DNA from: Oceanobacillus kimchii X50
Lineage (GTDB): Bacteria > Bacillota > Bacilli > Bacillales > Amphibacillaceae
Assembly: GCF_000340475.1 (NCBI RefSeq)
Contig: NZ_CM001792.1
Coordinates: forward strand, 2,344,611 to 2,408,610
Direction of reading: 5' to 3'
Length of the DNA stretch: 64,000 nt
Part shown: positions 4,093 through 63,480 of the stretch, piece after piece
Layout of the letters: each line of letters starts with the position of its first letter
Numbering within the stretch: position 1 is the first letter of the stretch
The notes under the pieces: generated by a model
Seen by the model: the letters and a program-made list of their open reading frames with translations, nothing else
The model's database searches: none
What the model was told of the DNA's origin: nothing
Program-made: the position numbers and the translations under genes

Positions 4093-4342
4093 AAAAGCTA
4101 CTCATCCCTCATAAATAGGGACGAGAAGCTTTTATTTCCCGCGGTACCACCCAAATTAGTGTCTTATTGGACACTCACTTGACATCGATAACGTTGATGA
4201 AACGGCAATAGTTACTTAAGTTCACTACTGCAACATCCAAGGTGAGTTCGTATGATTATCATCAACAGTTTTCACCAACCACTGTCTCTCTTTTCCGATG
4301 AGTTACACACTACTAGTCCTTATCATAGTCGTTAATTGATTT
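4093..4342 (-). promoter_or_regulatory. T-box leader (leucine) of leuS
   Basis: Read on the minus strand, the conserved T-box sequence GGGTGGTACCGCGGG lies at 4138-4152. It is followed by a terminator hairpin at 4093-4133 (arms around AGCTTCTCGTCCC) ending in a T run. A Stem I region with the specifier context GAACTCACC places a CUC leucine codon at 4244-4246. Uncharged tRNA-Leu should stabilise the antiterminator and allow leuS transcription. Boundaries are approximate. Confidence 0.95.
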
Positions 4343-7832: not shown

Positions 7833-8345
7833 CTATTGTAATTCCTGTTTACTCGCAAAGTATTTTAATTTCTTTAAAGCACGGTAAGATAACGACTTTG
7901 TGGTACCATATGGAATGTCTAATTGTTCTGAAATTTCCTTGAAACTGAAAGCGTAATAAAATCGGAGCATAATAATGGTTCTTTCTTTTTCATTTAGACG
8001 ATCTAATAATTGCTCCACTGTTATCTTTAAGGGAATATCCAAATCATAATAAGCTTTAGTAGACACTTTTTCTGGTTCCATCATGATCATTTTTTTATTT
8101 TTCCTGATCGTATCAAGTGCACAATTTATGGTTATTTTCGTTATCCAAGTCTTGAAATATTTTGGGTTTCTTAACTCTGGTAATTTTTCATACGTTCGAT
8201 AGGCAGTCTCTTGGATTACATCATATGTATCATTAGAGTTCTTAACATATGTATTTGCAATCCGGTATAAATTTTTCTCACAACTATGAAATAAAGTCAT
8301 AAATGATTCTTGGTTACCTTTCTGTGCTTCTTCTACAAGTTCAAT
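7833..8345 (-). CDS. Orphan ECF sigma factor with a probable ATT start
   Basis: This is a sigma-70 family factor of the ECF class. Region 2 is visible in YDVIQETAYRTYEKL and FKTWITKITINCALD, and the sigma-4 helix-turn-helix in FSFKEISEQLDIPYGTTKS. The first ATG (8300) would cut off the first sigma-2 helix. The frame continues upstream as ELVEEAQKGNQESF, typical for ECF N-termini, but has no ATG, GTG or TTG before a stop codon. An ATT codon at 8343-8345 sits seven bases after AGGTGG and gives 170 residues. No anti-sigma gene is adjacent, so its control is unknown. Confidence 0.8.
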   Translation of the reverse strand: MELVEEAQKGNQESFMTLFHSCEKNLYRIANTYVKNSNDTYDVIQETAYRTYEKLPELRNPKYFKTWITKITINCALDTIRKNKKMIMMEPEKVSTKAYYDLDIPLKITVEQLLDRLNEKERTIIMLRFYYAFSFKEISEQLDIPYGTTKSLSYRALKKLKYFASKQELQ

Positions 8346-9985: not shown

Positions 9986-10145
9986 AACTTCCCTTCAAAA
10001 CATGAGGAAAGGAAGAATTATGGCCTTTCGCTCTTATTGTTCAAGGAATTATTATCCTTGCATCAGGTTAGCACCTTTTCACCGTAGTGATGGTTGCTGG
10101 GCTTCATCGGGGCTGTCCCTCCACCAACTCTGAATAAGAGTATCC
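9986..10145 (-). promoter_or_regulatory. SAM-I (S-box) riboswitch and terminator of metK
   Basis: Read on the minus strand, the S-box core includes GGTGGAGGGACAGCCCCGAT and GAAGCCCAGCAACC. The P1 helix is closed by CTCTTATT (10133-10140) with AATAAGAG (10031-10038). The expression platform is a hairpin of CTTCCTTTC with GAAGGGAAG followed by eight T (9986-10016). SAM binding should favour termination. Confidence 0.96.
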
Positions 10146-25107: not shown

Positions 25108-25325
25108 TGTTTCATTAATAAAACCCTAGAGCGGAGCCCTAGGGTTTGAATACATCGTCAAATAATGCACACAAAAAATGTGTAACACAAACATGATCGA
25201 CATCTTCTCCCATCCAGACTATAACTGTCGGTACTGGAATCTAACCAGATCAACCACAATACGTATGCAGCTCGCGGACTTTACCGCCGGTCGGGAATTA
25301 CACCCTGCCCCGAAGATTGGAATCG
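25108..25325 (-). promoter_or_regulatory. FMN (RFN) riboswitch and terminator of ribU
   Basis: On the minus strand the RFN core is clear: CTTCGGGGCAGGGTG, then GACCGGCGGTAAAGTCCGCG, and near the 3' end GTCTGGATGGGAGAAG (aptamer about 25197-25325). A terminator hairpin with arms AAACCCTAG and CTAGGGTTT (25121-25147) plus a T-rich tail follows. FMN binding should terminate transcription before ribU. Confidence 0.97.
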
Positions 25326-36346: not shown

Positions 36347-36375
36347 AAAGAGGCTCTTAAGATGGAGCCTCTTTT
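36347..36375. terminator. Terminator between pgi and the sigma-fusion gene
   Basis: AAAGAGGCTC and GAGCCTCTTTT form the stem; the plus strand ends in T residues. It overlaps the last codons of the convergent minus-strand gene and may serve both. Confidence 0.75.
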
Positions 36376-38471
36376 GTTTTGGTTCTATCATATATTCTAT
36401 TTATTAACCAGATACCTTCCTGCTTAATTAACTCAATTGAAATCTGAAAAGTCTCCTCTTCAGTATATATATTAGGAAAAGATATGAAATCATAAACCGC
36501 TTTATCTTCTTCTTTCTTTAATTCAATAAAATAATAACTATTTCTCCAAATGTCATACCAGTCATAAATCGCTATTTCTAAACCATTCTCCGTCTTTAAT
36601 TTGTTAACAAGCTTTTCATCTGGCTTCACGGAAGCATACATAAAAAGTGACAATACCTCACTTGCAGACGCATCAGATAGAGCAGTAAGCTGCTTATTCT
36701 GTTCAATATAATTTTGATAAATGTCATGCGTCGTATCGACAACCGGCCACTTATCCAAAGATAAAAAGCTATCCTTCGTTAAATTTTGATAGGGTTCTAC
36801 AAAAATATACCAATACTCCTGATGTGCCAATTCTTCTACAGGAATCCAATTATTTCTCTGTAATTCTTGAACTACTTCATTTACTACACTCCAATAGATA
36901 GAATCATGATGGTTGTGAACAAAGAATAGCAGCTCTCTTTGATGCTCTTCAGATAACGGATTTTTTGTATCTATTTCATAAGAGTTAAATTTATCTCTTA
37001 CAAATAAATAATCTATTAACACATACTGACCGATTAAAGCTAATTCTTGTTGAACGAAAATTGTATGACGATCATCTGGATATGTTGTATAAATTTCTTC
37101 TATTCGTAAGAGAATATCTTTTAAATTAATAGGTTCTCCATTGTAATAAGAGTCTAAGTCTTCTTGGATGGATATCACATGTACATATGGCTCAGAACCA
37201 TCAACATCTTGAATATACTGTATTGCCCAACTTTCATCTACAGTCAAACTAAGACTTGTAGCATCCTCTAATTGCTCGATGATATAACCGTTATCTTTAA
37301 TTGCATCTATAGCTGATACGATATCTTCTGGTACATCTATTTCATCTATACTTTCTTGGTTATTTATAATTTCTTGTTGGAGGTCCTTATCAAGAGAATG
37401 TTTTTTAAACAAACTGCTTAAGTAATGTTCTAGTGAGGTGTGATTACTAACTTGTATGGTATAATAATCTGGATGATTTAGAAATATCGTGTTCTCCTTT
37501 CTCTGTTCCTCTGCAAGTTGTTTAGGCGTTGTTAAAAGTGTCATAATCATATCTTTGTACCATTGAATGTCATCTGCATCAGTATCTTCACCTGTAACTA
37601 GCTTATCCCTAAACAGAATAACTACATCTTTTGCTTGTTTCACCTGAATAAAGTTATCTACACTTTCTACACCAAGGCTTTGCTTATATTCTTCTTTTTT
37701 CCGCTCAAAATACTGTTCCATTTTTTCTTGTTCGGTTATGGTAGGTTGTTGAAAATCATCAAACATTGGAATTGCAAATAATACAAATAATACTAAACCA
37801 AATATTACAACAATCTTCGGGATCCAATTTTTCTTCTTTTTTTCATTTTGCCATTTTACAGCATGAAGAAGTTGTTGTGTAGAAGTCTTTTCTGGAAGTT
37901 TCTTATACTCTTCATTTAAGGACTTTAGCCATTTATGTATATCATTCATTTCTGTAGTAAACTTCTTTTTTAATGATTCTCTGCCGAGGTTAATTTTATT
38001 TTCTACTGCATCTGGTGATATTTGTAAAATAACAGCAATCTCTTCATATGATTTATCATGAATATAATAAAGAATAAGTGCAAATTTATATTTATCTTCT
38101 AATTGTTGTATACATTCATGCAGTAGAACGTGAATTTTGTTTTCGAAATAATCAGTCAAAAATTCGTGTTGCTGTTTTAACTTCTCCTCCGAATTACGTT
38201 TTCTTTTTTCTTTACGCTTGTAGTTTTTAACAACATTTAATGTAATCTTATATAGCAAAGTTGATAAGTTTGTATCTTGATCTGGATAATTTTTGAAGCT
38301 CTTACTGATTTTTAAAAATGCATCCCGTACAACATCTGAAGTTTTATTAGGATGAACACCTAATTGAAAAACAAATCGTTCTACGATCGAACGATATTTC
38401 TCTATGAATAACTCGATTCCTATTTCAAATTTATTATTTAAAAAATAACTTATTATCTGTTGATCTTCCAA
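36357..38471 (-). CDS. Single-chain ECF sigma factor fused to a membrane anti-sigma-like part
   Basis: One uninterrupted 704-codon frame. Residues 10-90 resemble sigma-2 (DVVRDAFLKISKSFKNY, STLLYKITLNVVKNYKRK) and 112-172 sigma-4 (YEEIAVILQISPDAVENK). A short stretch (KKLPEKTSTQQLLHAV, about 190-205) resembles the cytoplasmic start of RsiX-type anti-sigma factors. One membrane helix (about 216-237) and about 465 extracellular residues of unknown fold follow, ending in an NTF2-like pattern. Start is TTG 38471, six bases after AAAGGGG. An ECF-type promoter lies upstream. The sensor function is inferred. Confidence 0.85.
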   Translation of the reverse strand: MEDQQIISYFLNNKFEIGIELFIEKYRSIVERFVFQLGVHPNKTSDVVRDAFLKISKSFKNYPDQDTNLSTLLYKITLNVVKNYKRKEKRKRNSEEKLKQQHEFLTDYFENKIHVLLHECIQQLEDKYKFALILYYIHDKSYEEIAVILQISPDAVENKINLGRESLKKKFTTEMNDIHKWLKSLNEEYKKLPEKTSTQQLLHAVKWQNEKKKKNWIPKIVVIFGLVLFVLFAIPMFDDFQQPTITEQEKMEQYFERKKEEYKQSLGVESVDNFIQVKQAKDVVILFRDKLVTGEDTDADDIQWYKDMIMTLLTTPKQLAEEQRKENTIFLNHPDYYTIQVSNHTSLEHYLSSLFKKHSLDKDLQQEIINNQESIDEIDVPEDIVSAIDAIKDNGYIIEQLEDATSLSLTVDESWAIQYIQDVDGSEPYVHVISIQEDLDSYYNGEPINLKDILLRIEEIYTTYPDDRHTIFVQQELALIGQYVLIDYLFVRDKFNSYEIDTKNPLSEEHQRELLFFVHNHHDSIYWSVVNEVVQELQRNNWIPVEELAHQEYWYIFVEPYQNLTKDSFLSLDKWPVVDTTHDIYQNYIEQNKQLTALSDASASEVLSLFMYASVKPDEKLVNKLKTENGLEIAIYDWYDIWRNSYYFIELKKEEDKAVYDFISFPNIYTEEETFQISIELIKQEGIWLINRIYDRTKTKEAPS

Positions 38472-38504
38472 ACAAATCCCCTTTCTAATGTTTAATATAC
38501 ATAT

Positions 38505-38533
38505 ATAACGTTATAAGAACCATTTTTGTTCCA
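38505..38533 (-). promoter_or_regulatory. Possible ECF-type promoter of the sigma-fusion gene
   Basis: On the minus strand TGGAAC (38528-38533) is followed after 17 bases by CGTTAT (38505-38510). This resembles ECF-class promoters such as TGAAAC-N16/17-CGTA. It would start transcription about 25 bases before the TTG start codon and is consistent with autoregulation, which is an inference. Confidence 0.45.
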
Positions 38534-38572
38534 AAATTTCTAAAAAAAATTCTACTTTTCTTGTTTATAATT

Positions 38573-38660
38573 TTGTACATGGGGTAATACTATAACTGTA
38601 AGACTTTCTCGTATTCCCCCTGTAGGCAAGGCGCTCGAACGCTTTGCTTTTTTTTTGCCT
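38573..38660 (+). ncRNA. Structured element with a factor-independent terminator upstream of patB
   Basis: GGGGTAATAC pairs with GTATTCCCC across about 20 bases, and GCAAGGCG pairs with CGCTTTGC around CTCGAA, followed by nine T. No reading frame ends here. It may be a short RNA or an attenuated leader. A perfect TATAAT lies downstream (about 38681-38686), so patB can also be transcribed from beyond the terminator. Confidence 0.4.
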
Positions 38661-38721
38661 TTTTCCCCATACTCTTTGTTATAATAGTAACATTACATTT
38701 ACATAGGTAGGAGGTTTCTCA

Positions 38722-63238: not shown

Positions 63239-63480
63239 ACAAAAAAAACAACGACAGAAAATAACCATCATTGTTTTACCAACAAACGTTATCCTCCATT
63301 TCGATCAGTAGTTCTCCATGCACATATTCTTGCATGACAGTGCATCTTTTATTCAAAGATGTACCAGCAATAATAAGCGTGACCCTTATTATGCTTCGGC
63401 AAACAACCCTTCCACCAACTTTCATCGTTGTCATCCTCTTGTTGATTACTAATGTTGTATGCTCCTCTACCTCACCGATC
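63239..63480 (-). promoter_or_regulatory. Lysine riboswitch (L-box) with terminator
   Basis: On the minus strand the L-box signatures are in order: GGTGAGGTAGAGGAGC, then GGAAGGGTTGTTTGCCGAAG, ACTGTCATGC and GTGCATGGAGAACTACTGAT. P1 is closed by GATCGGT and ACTGATC (aptamer about 63303-63480). A terminator follows (AACAATGA with TCGTTGTT and a T run, 63239-63277). Lysine binding should switch off the downstream transporter. Confidence 0.93.

Follow-up and report, generated by a model that had tools for sequence, protein, structure and literature searches.

A fused ECF sigma/anti-sigma membrane protein in Oceanobacillus kimchii and its relatives: the sigma half has most likely lost promoter reading but kept its fold

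Can a sigma factor of the extracytoplasmic function (ECF) type still read promoters once it has been fused to its own membrane anti-sigma protein, and what might it do there if it cannot? The question is raised by a single open reading frame of Oceanobacillus kimchii X50, at positions 36357-38471 of the 64,000-nucleotide stretch analyzed here (the window; NZ_CM001792.1, positions 2,344,611 to 2,408,610). The initial annotation had described this frame as a self-contained, one-component signalling device, whose sigma part would reach promoters after proteolytic release or while tethered to the membrane. Comparison with relatives confirmed the architecture and spoke against the device: the residues that contact promoter DNA are eroded, and the sigma half most likely no longer reads promoters but keeps its fold and much of its anti-sigma-binding surface. 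This suggests that it is now a decoy or a spent part, not a switch. The reading we favour, with a probability of roughly 0.46, is that of a non-transcribing sigma mimic which would occupy its own anti-sigma domain within a membrane receptor. The gene and its surroundings are laid out as follows.

38502..38532, (-) strand: site resembling an ECF-type promoter (GGAAC-N17-CGT), 61 bases upstream of the start, with one mismatch to the GAAAC of most relatives
38478..38483, (-) strand: ribosome-binding site AAGGGG, ~7 bases upstream of the TTG start
36357..38471, (-) strand: complete fused gene, 704 residues from a TTG start, with the stop codon
38196..38471, (-) strand: sigma region 2 (residues 1-92), matched by the Pfam region 2 family; across the fused set region 2.1 is better preserved and region 2.3-2.4 eroded
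37956..38138, (-) strand: sigma region 4 (residues 112-172)
37959..38015, (-) strand: recognition helix (residues 153-171), reading VENKINLGR against VKTRIHRGK or near forms in separate sigmas; -35 contacts gone
37827..37946, (-) strand: anti-sigma domain (residues ~176-215), with predicted helices at 178-190 and 198-211
37764..37817, (-) strand: single membrane helix (residues ~219-236, from the sequence), preceded by a lysine-rich stretch
36360..37754, (-) strand: outer part (residues 240-704, 465 residues), mainly helical, without a Pfam family
36387..36665, (-) strand: possible NTF2-like C-terminal domain (residues ~603-695)

The frame is genuine and encodes an ECF sigma portion (residues 1-172 of the 704-residue protein), an anti-sigma domain, a membrane helix and an outer part. 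The sigma-like N-terminus, already called clear in the initial annotation, scores above the Pfam cut-offs for both Sigma70_r4_2 (3.3e-13, 49.5 bits) and Sigma70_r2 (5.4e-7, 29.7 bits), and the proposed ribosome-binding site, single membrane helix and 465-residue outer part were borne out as well. The predicted structure has a mean predicted local distance difference test (pLDDT) score of 82 and a predicted template modelling (pTM) score of 0.58; it places the membrane helix at residues 218-232, with low pLDDT there. A fold search with the outer part alone returned no strong match, and we claim no fold for its helical portion. A protein-database search gave two proteins only, with a weak third one added by a profile; it showed a 704-residue cluster of 13 sequences at 99% identity. 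A single-protein scan of genome contigs found no relative. Because the database search gave so few, relatives were drawn from whole-genome searches with an alignment of the post-sigma part as query, which matched 24 of the 159 genomes of the family.

The linker behind the sigma portion is, by profile comparison, related to anti-sigma domains. Seven of the 12 fused linkers, compared profile to profile (hhalign) with the N-termini of eight membrane proteins whose genes immediately follow separate sigma genes (in Halalkalibacter and others), matched over 40 columns with a probability of 96.4% and an E-value of 1.1e-9. The separate sigmas found by profile in Halalkalibacter, Alkalihalobacterium and relatives are directly followed by a membrane protein with a linker-like N-terminus. 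The proposed anti-sigma character of the linker was upheld in this general form; as for its likeness to RsiX, there was no RsiX model among the matches listed, in a search that did not compare RsiX itself. No anti-sigma model occurred among the seven Pfam families listed or the 25 of 69 NCBIfam families listed; no zinc finger was matched among the Pfam families listed, and the anti-sigma stretch of the window protein is free of cysteine. The predicted structure is compatible with sigma binding by this domain. At another locus of a genus g26 genome (G095:C33:195195-195684), a sigma adjoins a protein whose anti-sigma domain is of this type too; it is a possible partner or paralogue.

The 24 matched genomes present three states of the locus: 12 carry separate overlapping sigma and anti-sigma genes, ten carry the fused form, and in two (G091 and G092) nothing but the membrane helix and outer part is left. 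The same architecture thus recurs in related genomes, with 12 intact fused genes in ten genomes: the window genome (G000) and another species (G008; full length, 73% identity to the window protein), both of genus g1, and eight genomes of genus g26, two of which carry tandem fused copies. Fused genes are found in Ornithinibacillus massiliensis, Ornithinibacillus californiensis, Paucisalibacillus globulus (two strains) and Paucisalibacillus sp. EB02; separate ones in Oceanobacillus profundus, Virgibacillus indicus, Virgibacillus sp. YIM 98842 and Lentibacillus saliphilus. The genes pgi and patB both flank the locus in 21 of the 24 genomes, the others being G099 (patB only, on a short stretch) and G082 and G083 (neither). 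Wherever the two genes are separate (12 loci), the sigma gene ends inside the start of the anti-sigma frame, always in the same relative frame and in eight cases in the form ATGGATGA (start codons were assigned by reading), and M175 of the fused protein corresponds to the start position of the separate anti-sigma genes. Judged by these loci, the frame arose by a true in-frame fusion of an ECF sigma gene and an overlapping membrane anti-sigma gene; two-gene relatives, which the initial annotation had named, together with a sequencing error, as a finding that would refute its proposal, show its origin.

Whether built from the anti part, from the sigma part or from the two combined, the trees require two changes between the fused and separate states, and a single fused group appeared in 0 of 200 bootstrap trees in each of the three data sets. 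When all fused rows were held together, the approximately unbiased (AU) test did not reject the constraint (p = 0.085 for the anti part, 0.366 for the sigma part and 0.075 for both). Our best estimate from these trees is two separate fusions, one in Oceanobacillus and one in Ornithinibacillus/Paucisalibacillus. The trees were made without G091, G092 and the broken second copy of G094; G083, a separate pair whose anti-sigma gene is itself split over two frames, was included. The second tandem fused copy of Ornithinibacillus californiensis (L068, 6054-8214) lies in two frames (343 and 379 residues) and is probably a broken gene, and the separate sigma gene of Oceanobacillus profundus (L062/L033) lacks its first ~20 residues and has no ECF promoter motif found upstream, so that this pair may itself be decaying. 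In G091 and G092 (loci L046 and L055) the outer part, still in its usual place, follows a different short N-terminus that contains neither a sigma nor an anti-sigma domain. Production of a separate anti-sigma protein by internal re-initiation was considered and is not proposed, M175 being without a clear ribosome site in the window gene and G008 having no ATG there.

What distinguishes the fused from the separate sigmas is the loss of residues that read DNA. In the account of the SigW/-35 complex in PMC6713349, base-specific contacts are made by K170, T171 and R175, with R172 and H174 beside them. All five residues are identical in 9 of the 12 separate sigmas, and the three base contacts, counted by residue class, are present in 11 of them (G095 has two). 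Among the 12 fused proteins, six lack all of them, four keep one, G103bf keeps two and G098bf all three; in the window protein the equivalents are E, N and L (VENKINL), none being kept, and the residues at these positions differ even among near relatives. The mean net charge of the recognition helix falls from +5.75 in separate to +0.83 in fused proteins. As a control, 24 aligned free-standing ECF-like sigmas contained 19 with three contacts, four with two, one with one and none with zero. They came from 55 loci of four genomes (25 of this genome and 30 of 93 matches in three others) and were sorted by the author, two fused rows and four apparently non-ECF rows being set aside; the 24 include L116, a sigma of the family studied here that is encoded separately.

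The erosion is not spread evenly over the sigma fold. Conservation loss amounts to 0.44 in region 2.3-2.4, 0.41 in the recognition helix and 0.23 in region 2.1, and the hydrophobic core positions of region 4 remain similar. With contact positions taken from Table 2 of PMC7406223 and the contact data of PMC6713349, and RpoE position 149 (which touches both anti-sigma and DNA) counted on the DNA side only, the loss at the eight -35 contact positions exceeded that at equally conserved positions (0.62% of 5000 draws as large), as did that at the five helix positions alone (0.76%), whereas the loss at 14 positions touching an anti-sigma in four crystal structures was no greater than at matched positions (86% of draws as large); the 12 fused rows are related yet treated as separate in these tests, and the figures are descriptive. 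At E ≤ 10, Sigma70_r4_2 is recognized in 10 and Sigma70_r2 in 9 of the 12 fused proteins, and both in all 12 separate sigmas. As for core binding, which was part of one of the refuting conditions named in the initial annotation, region 2.2 is partly eroded: Q49 is retained in 5 of 12 fused proteins (R in the window protein), and D46, V48 and F52 are kept in the window protein. N79 is found in three and W72 in four of the 12, the window protein keeping N79 and not W72, and the mean charge of region 2.3-2.4 is +4.1 in fused vs +5.2 in separate proteins (+7 in the window protein).

A dead sigma was expected to lose its autoregulated promoter; this expectation failed, as the motif is kept in most fused genes. 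The exact form GAAAC-N15..18-CGT, in which we take CGT to be the -10 match, lies 52-67 bases before the start in nine genes of each set of 12, separate and fused. One-mismatch forms precede two separate and two fused genes (the latter both of Oceanobacillus), and one gene of each kind has none. The exact motif occurred in at most 0.4% of shuffled draws; for the window gene, a site with no more than one mismatch turns up in 4.4% of shuffles, so that its motif alone is weak evidence. GAAAC is the SigW -35 consensus given in PMC6713349. The sole fused gene without the motif, G098bf, is also the sole one in which the base contacts are complete. Inspection of G091 and G092 by eye showed no ECF promoter motif. 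Since the motif is kept while the fused sigma has lost its reading residues, presumably another ECF sigma reads it. Several candidates exist in this genome, where the region 4 profile matches 25 places at E ≤ 0.001, not all of them ECF. One further ECF-like sigma gene lies in the window itself, at 7833-8300 on the (-) strand (G000:C1:2352476-2352628), with the recognition stretch TKSLSYRAL.

Codon-model estimates, made without G083 and the broken second G094 copy, describe how selection has acted on the two halves. Omega, the ratio of nonsynonymous to synonymous substitution rates, is 0.095 for the sigma part of 11 separate genes and 0.217 for that of ten fused g26 genes (about 2.3-fold relaxed), compared with 0.171 and 0.147 for the anti part and 0.134 and 0.118 for the anti-sigma domain alone. 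Pairwise, Oceanobacillus profundus (G017) vs G016 gave 0.11 (sigma) and 0.30 (anti), and the window genome vs G008 gave 0.56 (sigma; 95% interval 0.37-0.93) and 0.32 (anti); the upper 95% limit for the sigma part stays below 1 in all five fused pairs tested (0.34 to 0.93). By these estimates, selection on the sigma part is weakened, not vanished, and the g26 anti-sigma domain is as constrained as before the fusion. A domain under full constraint should have a partner, and the nearest candidate is the sigma fold of the same chain, with its matching surface kept and its DNA surface lost; hence our preference for a built-in mimic.

On this preferred reading, an ECF sigma gene and an overlapping membrane anti-sigma gene fused in frame, after which the sigma half shed its promoter-reading residues and kept its fold and much of its anti-sigma-binding surface. 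The resulting look-alike, incompetent for transcription, would fill the anti-sigma domain within the same molecule, and another ECF sigma of the cell would read the promoter motif of the fused gene. A signal received by the outer part would then weaken the grip of the look-alike, so that the anti-sigma domain could bind a sigma in trans; the effect may also run the other way. A parallel is the sigma-like domain of PhyR, an anti-anti-sigma of alphaproteobacteria, described in PMC8103513 as keeping its anti-sigma surface and lacking its DNA surface: both combine an ECF fold with degenerated promoter contacts. PhyR, however, has a receiver domain, none of which is among the Pfam matches listed for the window protein, and acts on a separate NepR, whereas here a membrane anti-sigma protein carries the look-alike in its own chain. 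A bolder and rather doubtful version sees a new signalling design that has probably arisen twice, an anti-sigma receptor that carries a dead sigma as its own plug and would do within one membrane-bound chain what PhyR does by partner switching. Depending on the signal sensed by the outer part, the plug would expose the anti-sigma domain to other ECF sigmas or hide it from them, and the design would have been multiplied in tandem in Paucisalibacillus.

Several observations weigh against a built-in mimic. G098bf and G103bf retain three and two base-contact classes. The anti-sigma domain of the Oceanobacillus pair, with an omega of 0.53 (95% interval 0.19-1.74; 44 codons), is not clearly constrained, and the low values stem from g26, another genus. 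The model has a pTM of only 0.58, and two other anti-sigma-bound sigmas, 1or7 and 4nqw, are a poor fit to it when the entire sigma is compared (12.2 and 9.8 A). Finally, G091 and G092 keep the outer part at the locus without either cytosolic domain, as a relic predicts; because they do so, the outer part can evidently dispense with both domains.

The strongest alternative, to which we give somewhat less credence, is such a decaying relic: sigma function would be gone, the N-terminus would be kept since its fold is required, and selection would act on a membrane-anchored outer part with a job of its own. It explains the state of G091 and G092, which also lack a visible ECF motif, and the relaxed sigma constraint as well as the mimic does; relaxation is greatest between the window genome and G008, where the anti-sigma domain is loose too. 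It is less at ease with the residual constraint in all five fused pairs, the undiminished constraint on the g26 anti-sigma domain, the concentration of erosion on DNA contacts and the exact promoter motif of most fused genes, and the outer part is found without the sigma part in none of the 11 matched g26 genomes.

A working one-piece switch, in which regulated proteolysis releases a promoter-reading sigma, perhaps of new specificity, appears improbable. It has a proven precedent in IutY of Pseudomonas putida (ECF243), a one-chain sigma/anti-sigma hybrid activated by proteolysis according to PMC8999054 and PMC5411451, which likewise links its cytosolic ECF sigma through a single membrane segment to an outer anti-sigma part, all in one chain. 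A site-2 protease family protein (M50) is present in all four genomes searched; moreover, the window protein passes both Pfam sigma cut-offs, region 2.3-2.4 is still positive, and one of the 12 fused proteins has its three base contacts. The IutY sigma, however, gains activity on cleavage by Prc/RseP, and IutY acts together with an outer-membrane receptor, whereas 11 of the 12 fused proteins have lost base contacts, in a pattern that varies between near relatives, along with most of the helix charge and, in the majority, N79 and W72. GAAAC is retained in the motif although its presumed reader has changed. This loss of DNA contacts argues against IutY-type activation in the window protein. A sequencing or assembly error joining two frames, for which only the two overlapping frames of close relatives could speak, is refuted by independent genomes, namely the 13-member cluster, the fused G008 and ten further genes in another genus.

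The one-chain architecture as such is already known, from IutY and from ECF48, ECF52 (SCO4117) and ECF53 of Actinobacteria, for which PMC8999054 describes a C-terminal fusion with anti-sigma-like and membrane parts. The window protein shares this C-terminal arrangement; theirs has a zinc-finger domain, whereas here the domain is short and without cysteine, in another phylum. The mimic we favour also differs from SigW/RsiW of Bacillus subtilis, encoded by two genes and with an RsiW whose zinc-binding helix bundle (PMC5358783) is not seen here, and from the two-gene CnrH/CnrY. In a literature search of partial coverage, no sigma/anti-sigma fusion of Bacillota, fused dead sigma or recurrent eroded form was found.

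Between the fused gene and patB, the stretch 38570-38665 on the (+) strand has a 19-base core unchanged at the loci of 22 of the 24 genomes and contains a terminator-like hairpin (fold z-score -3.1); at 38597-38655 there is a weak Rfam match to the Bacillus small RNA ncr1241 (E 0.0015, 31.7 bits; gathering score 60). Four RNA elements elsewhere in the window are above the Rfam gathering score.

4114-4335, (-) strand: T-box leader
10031-10140, (-) strand: S-adenosylmethionine (SAM) riboswitch
25198-25321, (-) strand: flavin mononucleotide (FMN) riboswitch
63301-63477, (-) strand: lysine riboswitch

The locus allows a separate pair, a fused pair with a dead sigma and an outer part alone to be compared at one place with steady neighbours. 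A sigma/anti-sigma fusion is usually read as a self-contained switch, yet here it is the residues for reading DNA that have been lost. Should the dead sigma prove to be a plug, Bacillota would have a case of sigma mimicry within a membrane receptor; should it prove to be a relic, the locus would show how sigma systems die, and fused sigmas annotated as such may not be sigmas.
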